From positions 1,488,001 to 1,552,000 of the forward strand of contig NC_015474.1 in assembly GCF_000211475.1 (NCBI RefSeq): DNA of 64,000 bases, read 5' to 3'. A program made the position numbers and the translations under genes. Origin of the DNA: Pyrococcus sp. NA2 (GTDB taxonomy: Archaea > Methanobacteriota_B > Thermococci > Thermococcales > Thermococcaceae). The notes under the pieces were generated by a model. It worked only from the letters and a program-made list of their open reading frames with translations. It did not search any database and was not told the DNA's origin. This document shows positions 2 to 9,640 of the stretch, in pieces. Position 1 is the first letter of the stretch. The number at the start of each line of letters is the position of its first letter.

Positions 2-304
2 CCCTCCATAACTGAAATTCTCGAGGAAGTGAGGAGAGATTTTCCAACGATAAGCTTCTCAACTCTCTATTCCAATTTACTCATCTTACATGACCTTGGC
101 CTAATAGAGCTGTTTCCTCTAAAAGGTGAGACTAGAGTTGAGGTCAATATGGAGCCTCATATCAACATAATAGAGGGAGAGGAAGTAGTGGATCTCAAAG
201 ATCCTGAGATAATTGAACTCATAACTAGGAAAACCGGGAAAAAGGTCAAGCTTGTTAACGTGCTTGTGGATAGTTCTCAGTCTACCTCAAGGCTGAAGTC
301 CTGA
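2..304 (+). CDS. Fur/PerR-family metal-dependent regulator, C-terminal part
   Basis: The gene enters from outside the window; the reading frame is open from base 2, so the start is missing. The visible part begins in the winged helix (EILEEVRRDFPTISFSTLY, the recognition-helix pattern typical of Fur proteins) and continues through the wing (LGLIELFPLKGETRVEV) into a short dimerisation domain. None of the CxxC zinc motifs of many Fur/PerR proteins is visible, and the last residues (VDSSQSTSRLKS) look non-canonical. It sits next to ferritin-like, rubrerythrin and superoxide reductase genes, so a peroxide or iron response regulator is the natural inference. Its 3' end overlaps the convergent ferritin-like gene by 28 bp. 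Confidence 0.8.
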   Translation, partial: PSITEILEEVRRDFPTISFSTLYSNLLILHDLGLIELFPLKGETRVEVNMEPHINIIEGEEVVDLKDPEIIELITRKTGKKVKLVNVLVDSSQSTSRLKS

Positions 305-759
305 TAGTCCATCCATATCCCCGTCTTCATTATCGAATCATATTGAGCCTTCATTAATTCATAGTGAGCCTTTTCTATCCTTGCCAAATTCTTGAAGACC
401 TTCCTTAGTTCTTCACTTTTAGCTTCTTTTGCAGCCCTCTCATAGAACTCCCATGTTAATTTCTCCTGTTCCATTCCAATTTTAACGGCGTCAATTTCAC
501 TAAGTTCTCCTTCCCTTATTTCTTTGAATATCAATCTTTCAACTAGCTCATTGTTAATTCTAGGCATCTCACACTCATTTACAAGTTTCTCCAGGAATTC
601 TTTCTCAAATATCTCCCAGTGGTTTGCTTCCTCATTGGCGAGGAAAAGAAACATCTTCCTTGCTCTTTCATCGCTAACTTTTCTTGCAAGATTCAGGTAG
701 AACTTGAGTTCGGCTTTCTCTATCTCCAAAGCCAATCTGAGGATATCTATCTCCTTCAT
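277..759 (-). CDS. Ferritin-like (rubrerythrin-fold) diiron protein, 160 aa
   Basis: A four-helix-bundle ferritin-like protein. Two helix pairs carry the diiron ligand pattern: E-I-E-K-A-E-L-K-F-Y with EEANHWEIF (ExxH), then GMEQEKLTWEFYERA with RIEKAHYELM (ExxH). There is no rubredoxin domain, unlike classical rubrerythrin. It probably stores iron or reduces peroxide in the cytoplasm. It lies 10 bp downstream of a second ferritin-like gene (770-1294), so the two form an operon, and its end overlaps the convergent Fur-type regulator. The exact substrate cannot be told from sequence. Confidence 0.8.
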   Translation of the reverse strand: MKEIDILRLALEIEKAELKFYLNLARKVSDERARKMFLFLANEEANHWEIFEKEFLEKLVNECEMPRINNELVERLIFKEIREGELSEIDAVKIGMEQEKLTWEFYERAAKEAKSEELRKVFKNLARIEKAHYELMKAQYDSIMKTGIWMDYQDFSLEVD

Positions 760-769
760 CGCGAGCCCC

Positions 770-1294
770 TCAGAAGTTGAAGTTTATGTCCTTCATTAGC
801 TGGTCATAGAACTCCTCCTTGTATATGTCTGGATATCGGGTTATATACTCGTATTGCTTCTTTATTATATTGTAGTGGTTTCTCTCCATGTCCGCGAGCA
901 TTTCAAGAAGTAATTTCGTCTTTTCAGTTGCGGCATACTTTGCAAGCTCCCTATAGAGTTTCTCACTAACAAGCTCAGCTTCCATGGAGATCTCATAAAT
1001 GTCGTCAATAGTCACCTCAACATCCTCTATTATCTCTCCCATTTTCTCCGCAATGACTTTGAATTCCGCAATGACATCTAGTTCTATCTTCTTTGGTTCA
1101 GCGTTCTCTCCTAAAACCTTCTCTGCAATGTTCTTGACGATCTGCCTATGTTTTTCCTCTTCACTGGCTAGGAAGAGAAGCTCATCTCTTATGACGTCAC
1201 TCTTAACCATCGAAGCAAGCTTCTCATAGGCTTCCTTTGCTCTTATCTCGGAGTTCATCGCTATCTCAAAAACTTCCTTATCCGTAATCTCCAC
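770..1294 (-). CDS. Ferritin-like (rubrerythrin-fold) diiron protein, 174 aa
   Basis: Paralogue-like neighbour of the 160-aa protein. Diiron motifs are visible: EIAMNSEIRAKEAYEKLAS with EEEKHRQIV (ExxH), then SMEAELVSEKLYRELA with ADMERNHYNII (ExxH). No rubredoxin domain. The start is GTG at 1294; the next in-frame ATG (1258) would remove the helix preceding the first ligand Glu. First gene of a two-gene operon with a TATA-like box (GGTTATTATAATT on the minus strand, about 1324-1338). Probable role in iron or peroxide handling with the adjacent rubrerythrin and superoxide reductase genes. Confidence 0.8.
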   Translation of the reverse strand: MEITDKEVFEIAMNSEIRAKEAYEKLASMVKSDVIRDELLFLASEEEKHRQIVKNIAEKVLGENAEPKKIELDVIAEFKVIAEKMGEIIEDVEVTIDDIYEISMEAELVSEKLYRELAKYAATEKTKLLLEMLADMERNHYNIIKKQYEYITRYPDIYKEEFYDQLMKDINFNF

Positions 1295-1434
1295 CTAGAA
1301 CACCTCAATTATTTTACCCTCTTTAATTATAATAACCTTTCGGGTCAAATTTATGCACAAAAGATTTCAAATAATAGACATTACTGGATTTAAATTCGAA
1401 CAGAATGCCAGGTGAATCATCGGTAAACCTTATT

Positions 1435-1473
1435 AACTTGTAGGGGTACAAGTAACTTGTGGGGGTGCAAGTT
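1435..1473 (+). promoter_or_regulatory. Tandem palindromic boxes at the ATPase start
   Basis: Two inverted repeats stand head to tail with a 19-bp period directly in front of the ATG at 1475: ACTTGTA-GGGG-TACAAGT (1436-1453) and AACTTG-TGGGGGTG-CAAGTT (1454-1473). Both centres carry GGGGTR. The second core, GGGGTG, ends 7 nt before the ATG and could also serve as ribosome site. A related 19-bp-spaced pair precedes the second STAND ATPase at 43862. Probably an operator or promoter element; its binder is unknown. Confidence 0.6.
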
Positions 1474-1474
1474 A

Positions 1475-2557
1475 ATGTTATTTTCTCCATATCCAAAAAG
1501 AGTAAGAGAAGAACTCTTCAACAGAGAGAAGGAACTTGAAGAACTTAAAGAGGCAATAGAAAGAGGAGAAAGGCTGATACTTCTTCTTGGGCTCAGAAGA
1601 CTTGGTAAAAGTTCACTCTTAAATGTTGCCCTAAATGAAATTCCAGACCCATCAATTAAGATAGACGTAAGAAAAACATATTCAGAGTTTTCCTCAGTGA
1701 ATAGGTACATAATTGGAAGGATGCTCCTCTCAGCCATGAAAGGAAAGCGAAGAATAATAGAGGAAGCAAAGATTTTCCTTGAGAGGGTTAGGGGAATAAG
1801 CATCTCTGGTGTTAAAGCTGAGATAACATCACGGGAATTTTCAATAGTTGAGTTACTTGAGGCCCTGAACGAGTATGGTGAAAAAACTGGAAGAGTTGTG
1901 ATAGCATTCGACGAAGCACAGTACCTCCGCTTTGGAGGAGCAACTAGGTACGATGGAATCTTAGCTTATGCTATTGATAACCTAGAGAATATAACATTCA
2001 TTTTAACTGGTTCTGAAGTTGGTCTTCTCTTTGATTTCCTCAAATTTGACAATCCAGAAAGTCCACTTTTCGGTAGATATCATCACGATATAATTTTAGA
2101 GAAGTTCAGCCCTGAATTAAGTGCGGAATTTTTAAGGAAGGGCTTTGAAGAAGTTGGAGCAAATATAAATGAGAGAGAAATAGAGGACGCTATAAGAGAG
2201 CTTGACGGAATAGTTGGTTGGCTAGCACTCTACGGTTATGTGAGAGTTACAAAGAAACTTGGACACAAAGAAGCAATTGGAGAGGTTCTCAAGGAAGCGA
2301 AATCTTTAGTAAAAAGTGAACTTGCAAAACTCTTCGCTTATAGTCCAAGGTACAAGGTTATATTAAAGGCAATAAGTCTGGGTTACTCTAGGTGGAGGGA
2401 TATTAAGGATTACCTAACCCTTAAGCTTGGCTACATTAACGACTCAAACTTCTCCTCCCTGCTTGAAAATCTTGTAAAGTCTGGTTATGTGGAAAAAAGG
2501 AATGGTAGGTACAGAATCTCAGACCCAGTCCTCGAGAAAATTTTCAGAGAATTATAG
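1475..2557 (+). CDS. STAND/MNS-class archaeal ATPase with C-terminal winged helix
   Basis: Arch_ATPase family P-loop NTPase (about 360 aa). Visible order: N-terminal FNREKELEEL motif, Walker A LLGLRRLGKSSL (around residue 35), Walker B VVIAFDEAQYL (around 145), sensor LTGSEVGLL (around 175), SPLFGRYHHD, then a C-terminal winged-helix region (SRWRDIKDYL...LLENLVKSGYVEKRNGRYRISDP). I chose ATG 1475 because it lies just behind the tandem boxes and matches the N-terminus of the paralogue at 42756-43862; an upstream in-frame TTG (1457) would start inside the boxes. Such proteins occur in many lineage-specific copies in Thermococcales; cellular function is not established. It stands alone between oxygen-defence genes. 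Confidence 0.8.
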   Translation: MLFSPYPKRVREELFNREKELEELKEAIERGERLILLLGLRRLGKSSLLNVALNEIPDPSIKIDVRKTYSEFSSVNRYIIGRMLLSAMKGKRRIIEEAKIFLERVRGISISGVKAEITSREFSIVELLEALNEYGEKTGRVVIAFDEAQYLRFGGATRYDGILAYAIDNLENITFILTGSEVGLLFDFLKFDNPESPLFGRYHHDIILEKFSPELSAEFLRKGFEEVGANINEREIEDAIRELDGIVGWLALYGYVRVTKKLGHKEAIGEVLKEAKSLVKSELAKLFAYSPRYKVILKAISLGYSRWRDIKDYLTLKLGYINDSNFSSLLENLVKSGYVEKRNGRYRISDPVLEKIFREL

Positions 2558-2630
2558 GCTATTAGATAACTATCCAAGTTTATCTATCGAATAATATAGT
2601 TCAAAGGTTTGACATTAAAAGCTCGAAATT

Positions 2631-2641
2631 GTTATATATTT
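2631..2641 (+). promoter_or_regulatory. TATA promoter of rubrerythrin
   Basis: GTTATATATTT lies about 30 bp before the expected transcription start near 2662 and 27 bp upstream of the rubrerythrin ATG, which would give a leaderless or nearly leaderless mRNA. Confidence 0.6.
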
Positions 2642-2667
2642 CTCTCTCTTAGATATTTTGATGCCCC

Positions 2668-3183
2668 ATGGTCGTTAAGAGAATAATGACAAGGAAGTTT
2701 TTGGAGGAGGCATTCGCTGGAGAGAGCATGGCTCACATGAGATACCTAATCTTCGCTGAACAGGCAGAAAAAGAAGGATTCAAAAATATAGCCAAGCTCT
2801 TCAAGGCTATAGCTTATGCAGAATTCGTTCACGCCAAAAATCACTTTATAGCCTTGGGAAAACTCGGCAAAACACCAGAGAATCTCCAGGTCGGAATAGA
2901 AGGGGAAACTTATGAGGTTGAAGAAATGTATCCTGTTTTCAACAAAACCGCCGAATTCCAGGGAGAAAAAGATGCCGTTAGAACTACACACTATGCTTTA
3001 GAAGCTGAAAAGATACACGCAGAGCTCTACAAGAAAGCAAAGGAAATGGCAGAACAGGGGAAGGACATTGAGATAAAGCGCATCTACATCTGCCCAGTCT
3101 GTGGATATACCGCCGTTGACGAGGCTCCAGAGTACTGTCCAGTTTGCGGAGCACCAAGGGATAAGTTCGTCGTGTTTGAGTAA
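2668..3183 (+). CDS. rbr: Rubrerythrin
   Basis: NADH-peroxidase component that reduces H2O2 in the cytoplasm with electrons from rubredoxin. The ferritin-like domain (residues 1-135) has EAFAGESMAHMRY and two ExxH helices (EFVHAKNH; EAEKIHAEL). The C-terminal rubredoxin domain (about 138-171) has CPVCGYTAVDEAPEYCPVCG. The length (171 aa) equals that of the well-studied Pyrococcus furiosus protein, which it closely resembles. It heads the classical anaerobe oxygen-defence cluster with rubredoxin (3264) and superoxide reductase (3447), in the same direction but with a separate promoter before rubredoxin. Confidence 0.97.
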   Translation: MVVKRIMTRKFLEEAFAGESMAHMRYLIFAEQAEKEGFKNIAKLFKAIAYAEFVHAKNHFIALGKLGKTPENLQVGIEGETYEVEEMYPVFNKTAEFQGEKDAVRTTHYALEAEKIHAELYKKAKEMAEQGKDIEIKRIYICPVCGYTAVDEAPEYCPVCGAPRDKFVVFE

Positions 3184-3222
3184 CTTGTTTGTTATTTAAA
3201 TTTTAATGGTTCATGCCACAAA

Positions 3223-3231
3223 CTTTATAAG
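3223..3231 (+). promoter_or_regulatory. TATA promoter of rubredoxin-superoxide reductase
   Basis: CTTTATAAG in the gap after rubrerythrin, about 41 bp before the rubredoxin ATG. It fits transcription starting near 3255 and separates expression of rubredoxin/superoxide reductase from rubrerythrin. Confidence 0.55.
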
Positions 3232-3263
3232 ATTGAATTGACAACATATTGGTGGGAAATGAA

Positions 3264-3425
3264 ATGGCCAAATGGAAGTGCACAATCTGTGGATACATAT
3301 ACGATGAGGATGAGGGGGATCCTGACAGCGGAATCCCTCCAGGAACGAAGTTTGAAGATTTGCCTGAAGATTGGGTTTGTCCCCTCTGTGGAGCCCCAAA
3401 GGACATGTTCGAGAAAATAGAATAG
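3264..3425 (+). CDS. rub: Rubredoxin, 53 aa
   Basis: Small electron carrier with one Fe(SCys)4 site, cytoplasmic. The translation starts [16 protein letters not shown] and ends [15 protein letters not shown]; both CxxC knuckles (CTIC and CPLC) are present and the 53-residue length is that of Pyrococcus rubredoxins. A ribosome site GGTGGG lies 7 nt before the ATG. It is the electron donor to both neighbours, superoxide reductase (22 nt downstream) and rubrerythrin (upstream). Confidence 0.97.
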
Positions 3426-3887: not shown

Positions 3888-6800
3888 CTTTCAATTCTCT
3901 TTTAGTCTTATTGGAACGGGGTTCCTCGTCCTCAGGGAGGCCCCAGCTGAGGCCGCTTTCAATTCTATTTTAGTCTTATTGGAACTGGAGGGTAGGGGGG
4001 TGATTGCCCCCCTACCGCCAACTTTCAATTCTCTTTTAGTCTTATTGGAACCCTATTGTGCTCCAGAATGATGTTATAACAGTTTCAGCTTTCAATTCTA
4101 TTTTAGTCTTATTGGAACTTTACGCGCTGAGGCTCGCGACGGGCCAGCTCGACAGCGCGCTCACTTTCAATTCTCTTTTAGTCTTATTGGAACCAACCCT
4201 CCCGCACCCGCCGCCTCCCCCGCCCAAATTCTTTCAATTCTCTTTTAGTCTTATTGGGACAGGGAAAATGTTAGTGGGACGGTTACTTTTTTGCCTGCTT
4301 TCAATTCTCTTTTAGTCTTATTGGAACCCACTACAAAACCCCTGTTCTTGTCCATTGCCGTTATCTTTCAATTCTCTTTTAGTCTTATTGGAACGCTGAA
4401 CATAGTCCCGTGGACGGCGTTCCAGGGGTACCTTTCAATTCTCTTTTAGTCTTATTGGAACTCTTGGCTAATTCAATGCCGGCCGGGAGTATATCCCCAC
4501 TTTCAATTCTCTTTTAGTCTTATTGGAACATGACGAGCAAGACAAAAGAATCAATAGACTGTATACTTTCAATTCTCTTTTAGTCTTATTGGAACCGGGC
4601 GTTCGGCGGGTTGGGCAGGCTCCAGATCTTGCACTTTCAATTCTCTTTTAGTCTTATTGGAACCTCGGAGGCGTCGGACGTTGTAGTGGCGGTCACCGTG
4701 CTTTCAATTCTCTTTTAGTCTTATTGGAACGTGGACTGGTGGATGCTCGTCGTGAGGGAGCCGGTCAGCTTTCAATTCTCTTTTAGTCTTATTGGAACCC
4801 AATCGGCCCCTTCAAGGAGGGGAAGGTCGTGGTCTCTTTCAATTCTCTTTTAGTCTTATTGGAACGACGTGGCTGGCCTTTGCCAAGACCGCCGTGAAGT
4901 ACCTTTCAATTCTCTTTTAGTCTTATTGGAACGGGCATGAGCCCGATCCTCCTGCTCGGGCTACTCCTCTTTCAATTCTCTTTTAGTCTTATTGGAACAC
5001 TGGGAGGAGAGGATGTTCGTCGATGACCCCGTGCCTTTCAATTCTCTTTTAGTCTTATTGGAACGAGGAGTTTGAAAGGTTTGTCGAGTGGGTGATGGGA
5101 GCTTTCAATTCTCTTTTAGTCTTATTGGAACGTATTCGCTGTTGAAAAACATGTACGGTGATCCAAACTTTCAATTCTCTTTTAGTCTTATTGGAACGAG
5201 ATTTATCCAGCGGCAAGATCGTTCCTTGACTCTCTTTCAATTCTCTTTTAGTCTTATTGGAACCAGGTGGACTACCTCCATCTCCTCCCCGATGACGAGG
5301 CTTTCAATTCTCTTTTAGTCTTATTGGAACAGGTTGGGAAAATCTATGTGAACTTTGTAGTGAAAGCTTTCAATTCTCTTTTAGTCTTATTGGAACGGGA
5401 GCCCTCGGCCAAGGTCTCCCAGTTGCTGTTGACTTTCAATTCTCTTTTAGTCTTATTGGAACGTCCCTGGGTTGCTGGCGTTTTTCTTCACGCCCTCAAC
5501 TTTCAATTCTCTTTTAGTCTTATTGGAACTGGACCCCAAAACTAAAATCTTGAAAATCAAAACCTCTTTCAATTCTCTTTTAGTCTTATTGGAACCGGCG
5601 GTGAAGTTCCTAGAGTGGCTGAGGAGCCCGGACTTTCAATTCTCTTTTAGTCTTATTGGAACGGTAATTGTCCCCAGGGACGCAATTATACTGACCTCCC
5701 CTTTCAATTCTCTTTTAGTCTTATTGGAACGGGCCAGCTCGTGATCCCGGACACGGACGTGCAATCTTTCAATTCTCTTTTAGTCTTATTGGAACAGTTG
5801 CTAAGCAAGGGCTGGAGAGAAAAAGACGTTGCTTTCAATTCTCTTTTAGTCTTATTGGAACACGTGAAGAGCATGCCGTTACCACCGAACACCACCGACT
5901 TTCAATTCTCTTTTAGTCTTATTGGAACAAGCTTTTATAAGATCCTCGAGAATACCATCTACCCCTTTCAATTCTCTTTTAGTCTTATTGGAACCGTTCC
6001 CTTGTTGAATGATGCACTTCCCAAGACGATCTTTCAATTCTCTTTTAGTCTTATTGGAACAAGACTTCTGAATCTGAAGCTCAACAAGTCATCGGTATTC
6101 CTTTCAATTCTCTTTTAGTCTTATTGGAACCTAGGCCGGGGCAAAGGCCCGGCCTAGCCCCAATGACCCTTTCAATTCTCTTTTAGTCTTATTGGAACGT
6201 GGGCGACAAGAGGAACTTTGAGTTTGACGATTTGACTTTCAATTCTCTTTTAGTCTTATTGGAACCGAAGCTGATGGCCGGCGTCTACACCCTGCTGGTG
6301 CCTTTCAATTCTCTTTTAGTCTTATTGGAACGAGATTTGGGGAGGTCTAGAGCTATTTAAGAACGATTACTTTCAATTCTCTTTTAGTCTTATTGGAACT
6401 TCGAGCTCTACCTGAAGTTCCCGCCACAGATAAGCCTTTCAATTCTCTTTTAGTCTTATTGGAACGAGCTCGGCGTAGTACTTCAGCGTTATCTGGTGCC
6501 TTTCAATTCTCTTTTAGTCTTATTGGAACTCGGTCGTCGACGCCGTCTACATACCTGTCGTCGTCAGCGCTTTCAATTCTCTTTTAGTCTTATTGGAACA
6601 GGGCCTTCAGGGGCTCCCACCAGGCAGGGTCGTCCACTTTCAATTCTCTTTTAGTCTTATTGGAACAGAAAAGCATACGTCGACTCCTTGAGCTTTTCGT
6701 TGCCTTTCAATTCTCTTTTAGTCTTATTGGAACATCGAATTCATGTGGAACGGGATACAGGCAGGGAGCACTTTCAATTCTCTTTTAGTCTTATTGGAAC

Positions 6801-9158
6801 TGAGGTTTTATGACGTTAATGGGAATAAGTTACCGTACCTTTCAATTCTCTTTTAGTCTTATTGGAACCGTTGTAGAAGGCGTCGAACTCGGGGAACTCG
6901 GTGCTCTTTCAATTCTCTTTTAGTCTTATTGGAACCTTTTTTGTAGATTGTAAACTCTGTTTCGTTGCCTTTCTTTCAATTCTCTTTTAGTCTTATTGGA
7001 ACTATGAGAGCTTCGAACTTTGTCTCTAAACGGATTAAGCTTTCAATTCTCTTTTAGTCTTATTGGAACTCCTTCTTTGCTCCATATGTAGCTTATTTCC
7101 TTGTAGCTTTCAATTCTCTTTTAGTCTTATTGGAACTAGACACGATAGTCTTTATCGAGTTTATCTATGAGGCTTTCAATTCTCTTTTAGTCTTATTGGA
7201 ACTGGTTAGGAAATGGAGAGTGAGGAGGTAGAAAAAGTTCTTTCAATTCTCTTTTAGTCTTATTGGAACTATAACTCTGCTTACATCCTCCACAACAACC
7301 TCTATTCCTTCTTTCAATTCTCTTTTAGTCTTATTGGAACCAACGCGATCACCAAGGATAAGGCACTATGCTCTACCTTCTTTCAATTCTCTTTTAGTCT
7401 TATTGGAACGGATGGTGGTAGTATGAAGGCGGTGTTCCTGAACCTCACTTTCAATTCTCTTTTAGTCTTATTGGAACGTGCCGTATGCGGGGGACGAGAA
7501 CATCGCTTTGCTCATCTTTCAATTCTCTTTTAGTCTTATTGGAACCACGCTGTCCGCATACTTGACGCCAACGCGGAACGCTTTCAATTCTCTTTTAGTC
7601 TTATTGGAACCTGCCCTCCTGTCGGCGTAGTTCAGAACCTCCCTAACTTTCAATTCTCTTTTAGTCTTATTGGAACTCGGCGGAAAAGTGCTCCCGTGCC
7701 TGTTTTGGCTGAGAAAAGCCTTTCAATTCTCTTTTAGTCTTATTGGAACCTCGGCGATCTCGTATATCCCCCTTGAAACCCTCTTCCTTTCAATTCTCTT
7801 TTAGTCTTATTGGAACGGAGGGCAACCATATACGTGAACTTTGTTGTATGTGACTTTCAATTCTCTTTTAGTCTTATTGGAACTCCTTCCACATAGCCAA
7901 GTACACCTATGAAATTGTACTTTCAATTCTCTTTTAGTCTTATTGGAACATAGTGCTCGACGCAAACAACTTCGACGGCTGGGACACTTTCAATTCTCTT
8001 TTAGTCTTATTGGAACCCACTCGTGGCCGCCTTCTGGTATCTTGAAACCCAGCTTTCAATTCTCTTTTAGTCTTATTGGAACGTTGAAGTAGCCACGCGC
8101 TATTGGCTCTGACCAGTGCCGCTTTCAATTCTCTTTTAGTCTTATTGGAACAAAAGGGCCACCTCCACGGTGTACTCTGCCAGAAACCTTTCAATTCTCT
8201 TTTAGTCTTATTGGAACTATTAAGTTGCTAAACCTAAAAGAGAAGGTAAAACTGCTTTCAATTCTCTTTTAGTCTTATTGGAACACGTCCGCAGGCGTGA
8301 AGTCGTCGAGGGCCTTTCCCCTTTCAATTCTCTTTTAGTCTTATTGGAACGAAACTACAAATGATACAGACAATACTACCCTTATACACTTTCAATTCTC
8401 TTTTAGTCTTATTGGAACAGATAAATGAGGAAGAACAAGAAACTGGGGCACTACTCTTTCAATTCTCTTTTAGTCTTATTGGAACCCAGAGAAGGTCGCA
8501 ATGGGTCTAGGAGGCACATGGCTCTTTCAATTCTCTTTTAGTCTTATTGGAACATGACGCTATACATGTTGTCCAACGCCCATTTGACCCCTTTCAATTC
8601 TCTTTTAGTCTTATTGGAACCGTAGACAACATAGACAACGTTTCTCGGTAACTCCTCTTTCAATTCTCTTTTAGTCTTATTGGAACTGTAGCCGATGAAC
8701 TCTTGCAATACCTTAGCATCCTCCTTTCAATTCTCTTTTAGTCTTATTGGAACCTACAACAATTCCTCGCAGAAGTTTACAAGATATCAACTTTCAATTC
8801 TCTTTTAGTCTTATTGGAACACGATGCGACAGAAGAAGAGTTTGAAAAATTCGTAGAGCTTTCAATTCTCTTTTAGTCTTATTGGAACCTGCTCTTGATA
8901 GTAAGCACTCCATTAGCGATGCACATTCTTTCAATTCTCTTTTAGTCTTATTGGAACTAGAGCTCCGTTCAACGTACACAGTGATGTACCAGCCCTTTCA
9001 ATTCTCTTTTAGTCTTATTGGAACTGATGTAAGCCTTCGCTAGAACTGGCAATTCGTCCCACTTTCAATTCTCTTTTAGTCTTATTGGAACCTCATCCAT
9101 CTCCGCTATGTATTTCTCCTTGCGTTCCCTTTCAATTCTCTTTTAGTCTTATTGGAAC
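3888..9158 (-). CRISPR. CRISPR array, 79 repeats of 30 bp and 78 spacers
   Basis: On the plus strand each repeat starts CTTTCAATTC and ends CTTATTGGAAC; on the transcribed minus strand it starts GTTCCAATAAGAC and ends GAATTGAAAG, so crRNAs would carry the 8-nt tag ATTGAAAG known for Pyrococcus. I counted 79 repeat starts from 3888 to 9129, a mean unit of 67 bp. Spacers are mostly 36-39 nt; spacer 4 (4119-4163) is 45 nt. Repeats 2 (3956) and 4 (4089) have A for C in the middle, giving the P. furiosus version, and repeat 6 (4231) ends TTGGGAC. These drifted copies lie at the low-coordinate end, which is therefore leader-distal. No cas genes are in the window, so interference proteins must be encoded elsewhere. 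Confidence 0.98.
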
Positions 9159-9640
9159 AGGCGCGATTTTTGCTCTATTTCTCCTATAGAGGAATTACAT
9201 TACTCTAATTTTATAAGCTTTTCTGGTATTGGAGCCCTCTGCTTAAGGAAAAATATCTTAACTCGGAAAGTTTCTATGAACACTTTGTTTGTTGAATAGG
9301 GCATTCAAATCTTAAATTTAGGAACCCTTAAATTCAAGCTCTATGGTTTTTGATAATTTAAATCCTGAAATTTAGATTCCTTAAGTTTAAATTTAAAGGA
9401 TGGCATGCTGGCTACATTTAAAAGCTAAAATGGCGGCTCAAAATCAAAATTTTAAAGATTTTGAAAATAATTCGTTACATTTTCGTGGGATAATTGTGGT
9501 GACATGTAATTTATTAACAATTGATTACTAAACGAACCATAATCAGCGTGGGGGGATATTTTGAATGTTGGGGGCATGAGGAGGGTTAATACTCGGAATA
9601 ATGGATTTTAATTAGGTTTCTAAAAATTTTCGAAAGAAGT
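9159..9640 (-). promoter_or_regulatory. CRISPR leader with promoter
   Basis: About 480 bp of AT-rich DNA without a gene, between the first (newest) repeat and tRNA-Gly. On the minus strand CTTATAAAATT (about 9208-9218) is a TATA box placed some 50-60 bp before the first repeat, so transcription would start near 9185 and run into the array. The rest has several TTAAATTT-type motifs (9310-9410) but no open frame. Position, length and composition match Thermococcales CRISPR leaders, which also guide spacer integration. Confidence 0.8.

Follow-up and report, generated by a model that had tools for sequence, protein, structure and literature searches.

CRISPR arrays and cas genes

The window, a stretch of 64,000 nucleotides comprising bases 1488001-1552000 of the single-contig 1.86 Mb genome of Pyrococcus sp. 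NA2, contains a CRISPR array at 3888-9158. The array has 79 repeats and 78 spacers, and its crRNA strand is the minus strand (repeat in the crRNA sense, GTTCCAATAAGACTAAAAGAGAATTGAAAG). The repeats are regular and 30 nt in length, and the spacers are unique and range from 34 to 45 nt (about 37 nt). A leader-proximal block at 9159-9230 (minus strand) is almost identical to the block adjoining the other large array of the genome, which carries 85 spacers and is located at 1688.1-1693.9 kb. All three of the variant repeats of the window array are found at its left end. As the block from 9159 onwards is common to both arrays and the variant repeats lie on the left, the right end of the window array was taken to be the leader end, where the youngest spacers lie, and spacers of this array are numbered here from that end. 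Spacers of the other large array are designated L010_n.

The cas locus (1694.6-1709.6 kb) adjoins the second array. It includes cas1, the type I-A genes cas8a, cas5a and cas7a with parts of cas3, and the type I-B genes cas3, cas5b, cas7b and cas8b/Cst1. No matches to Cmr2 or Csm1 were found in this genome. The CRISPR-Cas systems of P. furiosus are of types I-A, I-B and III-B (PMC7192623). The present genome shares with P. furiosus an array of nearly the same repeat with neighbouring type I-A and I-B genes, as well as NGG on the crRNA-complementary strand, and differs from it in the lack of a Cmr2 or Csm1 match. In its repeats, shared leader, cas1 and effector genes, and NGG-flanked targets, the window array conforms to the type I-A/I-B CRISPR arrays of Pyrococcus and Thermococcus.

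An isolated pair of repeats, 197 bases apart and with one of the two degenerate, is present at 603.2-603.5 kb of the genome (L009, 1241-1467) and could be the remnant or the seed of a third array. Strong G+C-rich hairpins (e.g., TAGGGGGGTGATTGCCCCCCTA) occur in spacers of both large arrays (3986-4021 and 6131-6168 of the window; 2519-2554 and 3592-3628 of L010); these spacers may perhaps have been captured from structured intergenic sites such as terminators.

Two spacers encoding nearly the same peptide

Spacers 61 (5065-5101) and 5 (8821-8858) both encode the motif EEFE[RK]FVE on the plus strand. Spacer 61 reads EEFERFVEWVMG in frame 1, with the motif at 5065-5088 (GAGGAGTTTGAAAGGTTTGTCGAG) followed by a tryptophan codon, TGG, at 5089-5091. 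Spacer 5 reads DATEEEFEKFVE in frame 3, with the motif at 8835-8858 (GAAGAGTTTGAAAAATTCGTAGAG). The preliminary description had drawn attention to this pair, and both spacers were confirmed at their coordinates and frames. The longer peptide in its title, EEFERFVEW, is correct for spacer 61 but not for spacer 5, which stops at FVE. In an all-against-all translated comparison, the pair ranked first within the window array (BLOSUM62 score of 38).

The shared 24 nt are identical at 19 positions, and the five mismatches fall at codon positions 3, 2, 3, 3 and 3. The differences are thus mostly synonymous, as had been proposed, with four of the five at third codon positions. Given a leader on the right, spacer 5 is young and was acquired recently, while spacer 61 is old. 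The two are separated by 56 array positions, and the proposal that their sources were met at different times is supported by this separation and by the right-end leader.

A second pair and the level expected by chance

A second pair of the same kind is formed by spacers 57 (5331-5366, plus strand; VGKIYVNFVVK) and 20 (7817-7853, plus strand; RATIYVNFVVC), which share the motif IYVNFVV. The two are identical at 17 of 20 nt, all three differences lie at third codon positions, and the motif starts at nucleotide 12 in both spacers. When back-translated, EEFE[RK]FVE and IYVNFVV each gave exact matches in 94 Thermococcaceae genomes only at their own two spacers, and neither is therefore a common host motif.

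The level expected by chance was estimated from 1,600 sets of 78 non-overlapping, length-matched fragments taken from elsewhere in the window. In 2.7% of these sets, some pair scored as high as pair 61/5 at the peptide level (P = 0.027), and in 1.3% a pair reached a peptide score of at least 38 together with a DNA score of at least 14 (P = 0.013). Two pairs with a peptide score of 35 and a DNA score of 14 occurred in 0.06% of the sets (P = 0.0006); the thresholds were fixed after both pairs were known, and these P values are somewhat favourable. Pair 61/5 alone is significantly but moderately above chance, and together with pair 57/20 the excess is strong. A further pair, L010_77 and window spacer 71 (peptide score of 39), was taken to be a chance match, as the two lie on opposite strands with a DNA score of only 7.

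A chance origin of pair 61/5 would mean that two unrelated genes both encode a short charged helix, EEFE[RK]FVE, a sequence type common in hyperthermophiles. The shared block is just eight residues long, and with all pairs and frames allowed for, P values of 0.013-0.027 are not tiny. Chromosomal proteins can also look similar: searches of the family genomes with up to three mismatches and at the protein level returned nothing but resembling chromosomal sequences, for example EEYERFVEWFWG within a reading frame of 753 aa, and EEFERFLD is found in other proteins. Against chance stand the bias of the differences in pair 61/5 towards third codon positions, the existence of pair 57/20, and the absence of the exact motif elsewhere in the 94 genomes. 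A chance origin was considered rather unlikely.

Search for the targets of the pairs

No protospacer for spacers 61, 5, 57 or 20 was found in IMG/VR, INPHARED, PLSDB, the GTDB genomes or the Thermococcaceae genomes. Exact and relaxed back-translated patterns identified only unrelated contigs in IMG/VR. Matches to FVEWVMG in the same database were mostly in the context NPxFVEWVMGxPxGW, without EEFE, a context reminiscent of phage cytosine methyltransferases. DNA searches of INPHARED and PLSDB yielded no credible match for the spacers of either pair, and when these two collections were searched at the protein level, with the spacer-61 peptide or a composite peptide in doubled form as the query, the outcome was either weak matches to bacterial phages or no match at all. 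The sole matches in the GTDB genome collection, to one Parcubacteria and one Nitrospirales contig, were rejected.

In a dedicated survey, only 33% of Thermococcales spacers had a protospacer match (PMC12934983); the missing target of the pair is unsurprising at this rate.

Targets of other spacers and the protospacer-adjacent motif

A protein-level scan of all 163 spacers of the genome found targets that were largely missed by DNA searches. Reversed spacers, which served as the control, reached a score of 44 once and otherwise no more than 38. Scores of 47-62 were thus taken as real, and matches scoring 42-44 were ranked as possible to probable.

L117 (G067:C108), a virus-like contig of 14,675 bases from the bin of a related Thermococcaceae genome, is matched by at least six spacers. 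Four of them (L010_8, L010_18, L010_19 and window spacer 7) match its helicase gene (Pfam D5_N, DUF5906), and the matches of window spacers 9 and 27 and of L010_2 lie in other genes of the contig. Spacer 7 (8687-8723, minus strand) encodes EDAKVLQEFIGY compared with DDAPVLQEFAGY in the D5-type helicase, and spacer 9 (8554-8590, minus strand) encodes VKWALDNMYSV compared with VKWAIDNMYSI in a 127-aa protein; both sites have an NGG PAM. The match of spacer 27 (7341-7379, plus strand), also with an NGG PAM, is probable, with NAITKDKALCST compared with YVITKDEALCAT in a 117-aa protein. The DNA identity between L117 and these spacers is only 51-78%. The same D5 helicase was considered as the source of pair 61/5 (EAGKDEYQKLVQ, score of 28) and was rejected as too weak and without a PAM; the motif was also absent from relatives of the helicase in two host genomes and IMG/VR.

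The primase-polymerase gene (195-3341) of the Thermococcus indicus plasmid pTI1 (L116, NZ_CP040847.1) is matched by at least three spacers of the other array, L010_80, L010_68 and L010_40, and perhaps also by window spacer 50. Two of the matches from the other array have an NGG PAM, and the best (33/37) is without NGG. Taken together, the matches to L117 and pTI1 are mostly at the protein level, with DNA identities of 51-89%.

Across the sites with a score of at least 42, NGG was present directly 3' on the plus strand of the array at 8 of 12. The PAM of P. furiosus is likewise NGG (PMC7192623). These protein-level matches, with NGG at 8 of 12 sites, show that the arrays have indeed kept a record of meeting varied members of the same families of elements more than once, a record that can be read mainly at the protein level.

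For pair 61/5 itself, spacer 5 ends just after the E codon of FVE, and at this point spacer 61 continues with TGG. Were the tryptophan conserved in the source of spacer 5, that spacer would have a perfect NGG PAM. The coincidence, expected by chance in about 1 in 16 cases, lends mild support.

Origin of the same-peptide pairs

Spacers 61 and 5 are likely to be ordinary CRISPR memories, acquired at different times, of a homologous gene carried by two mobile elements, either viruses or plasmids, that had diverged from each other. The mostly synonymous differences, the second pair, and the protein-level matches to L117 and pTI1 with NGG make related genes of divergent elements the best explanation. 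The preliminary description held that the spacers must come from related genes of divergent viruses or plasmids; that reading is retained as the best one, but as no protospacer was found, "must" is too strong.

For the target gene of the pair, its PAM and the reason for the renewed acquisition, we infer the following. Two divergent elements would carry a conserved protein-coding segment, (DAT)EEFE[KR]FVEW, and the adaptation machinery would cut beside an NGG located on the crRNA-complementary strand. In the case of spacer 5, the tryptophan codon, TGG, probably supplied this NGG. Within 56 insertions, a relative with different codons would have been met and a new spacer added, presumably since the old spacer no longer matched well.

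The re-acquisition could also have been directed, with the old, imperfect spacer priming capture from the same conserved site of a diverged relative. Pair 57/20, with its motif starting at the same nucleotide in both spacers, would exemplify such a process, and the array would then be updating its entries for conserved sites. This was regarded as unlikely.

Both spacers could instead stem from a single element with two paralogous copies of the gene, which would be compatible with everything seen in the sequence, or from relatives that co-infected the host in a single episode. However, the spacers are 56 positions apart in an array to which new spacers are added at one end, which makes a single source or episode very unlikely. 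That one spacer was copied within the array and later mutated can be practically dismissed, despite the location of both spacers on the same strand of one array: the common block sits 14 nt out of step between the two, and their remainders cannot be aligned. This strongly opposes a drifted duplicate, which would have kept its register, and neutral drift does not favour third positions.

With homologous genes of divergent elements as the preferred source, same-peptide pairs would show, from the host genome alone, that a gene conserved across a varied family of viruses or plasmids was encountered more than once. For CRISPR biology, such pairs are expected behaviour, the usual trace of recurrent attack by invaders of one family. 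What is gained is a method: matching at the protein level with the PAM taken into account recovers targets missed by DNA searches, among them the L117 helicase with its four spacers, and a codon-aware comparison of spacers with one another exposes shared targets.

In CRISPR loci of the Sulfolobales, several spacers match families of viruses and plasmids in part of their length or imperfectly (reviewed in PMC4390879). The present case is similar in that one host array holds several, often imperfect, matches to the same element families, and differs in that the shared target of each pair is deduced from two spacers alone through a codon-aware comparison. The spacer-guided mobilome of the Thermococcales, a set of 3,074 contigs in which each was matched by 14 spacers on average (PMC12934983), concerns the same host order and the same kind of target. 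Its matches were made by DNA at an identity of at least 90%, whereas the pairs and helicase matches described here are visible mainly at the protein level.

CRISPR repeats were also seen on a mobile element. The virus-like plasmid pTN3 (L067, KF527230.1) carries a mini-CRISPR at 1887-1991, in which two Thermococcales-type repeats flank a single spacer. It occupies the gap that separates TNaP3-29 from TNaP3-28, near the major capsid gene.
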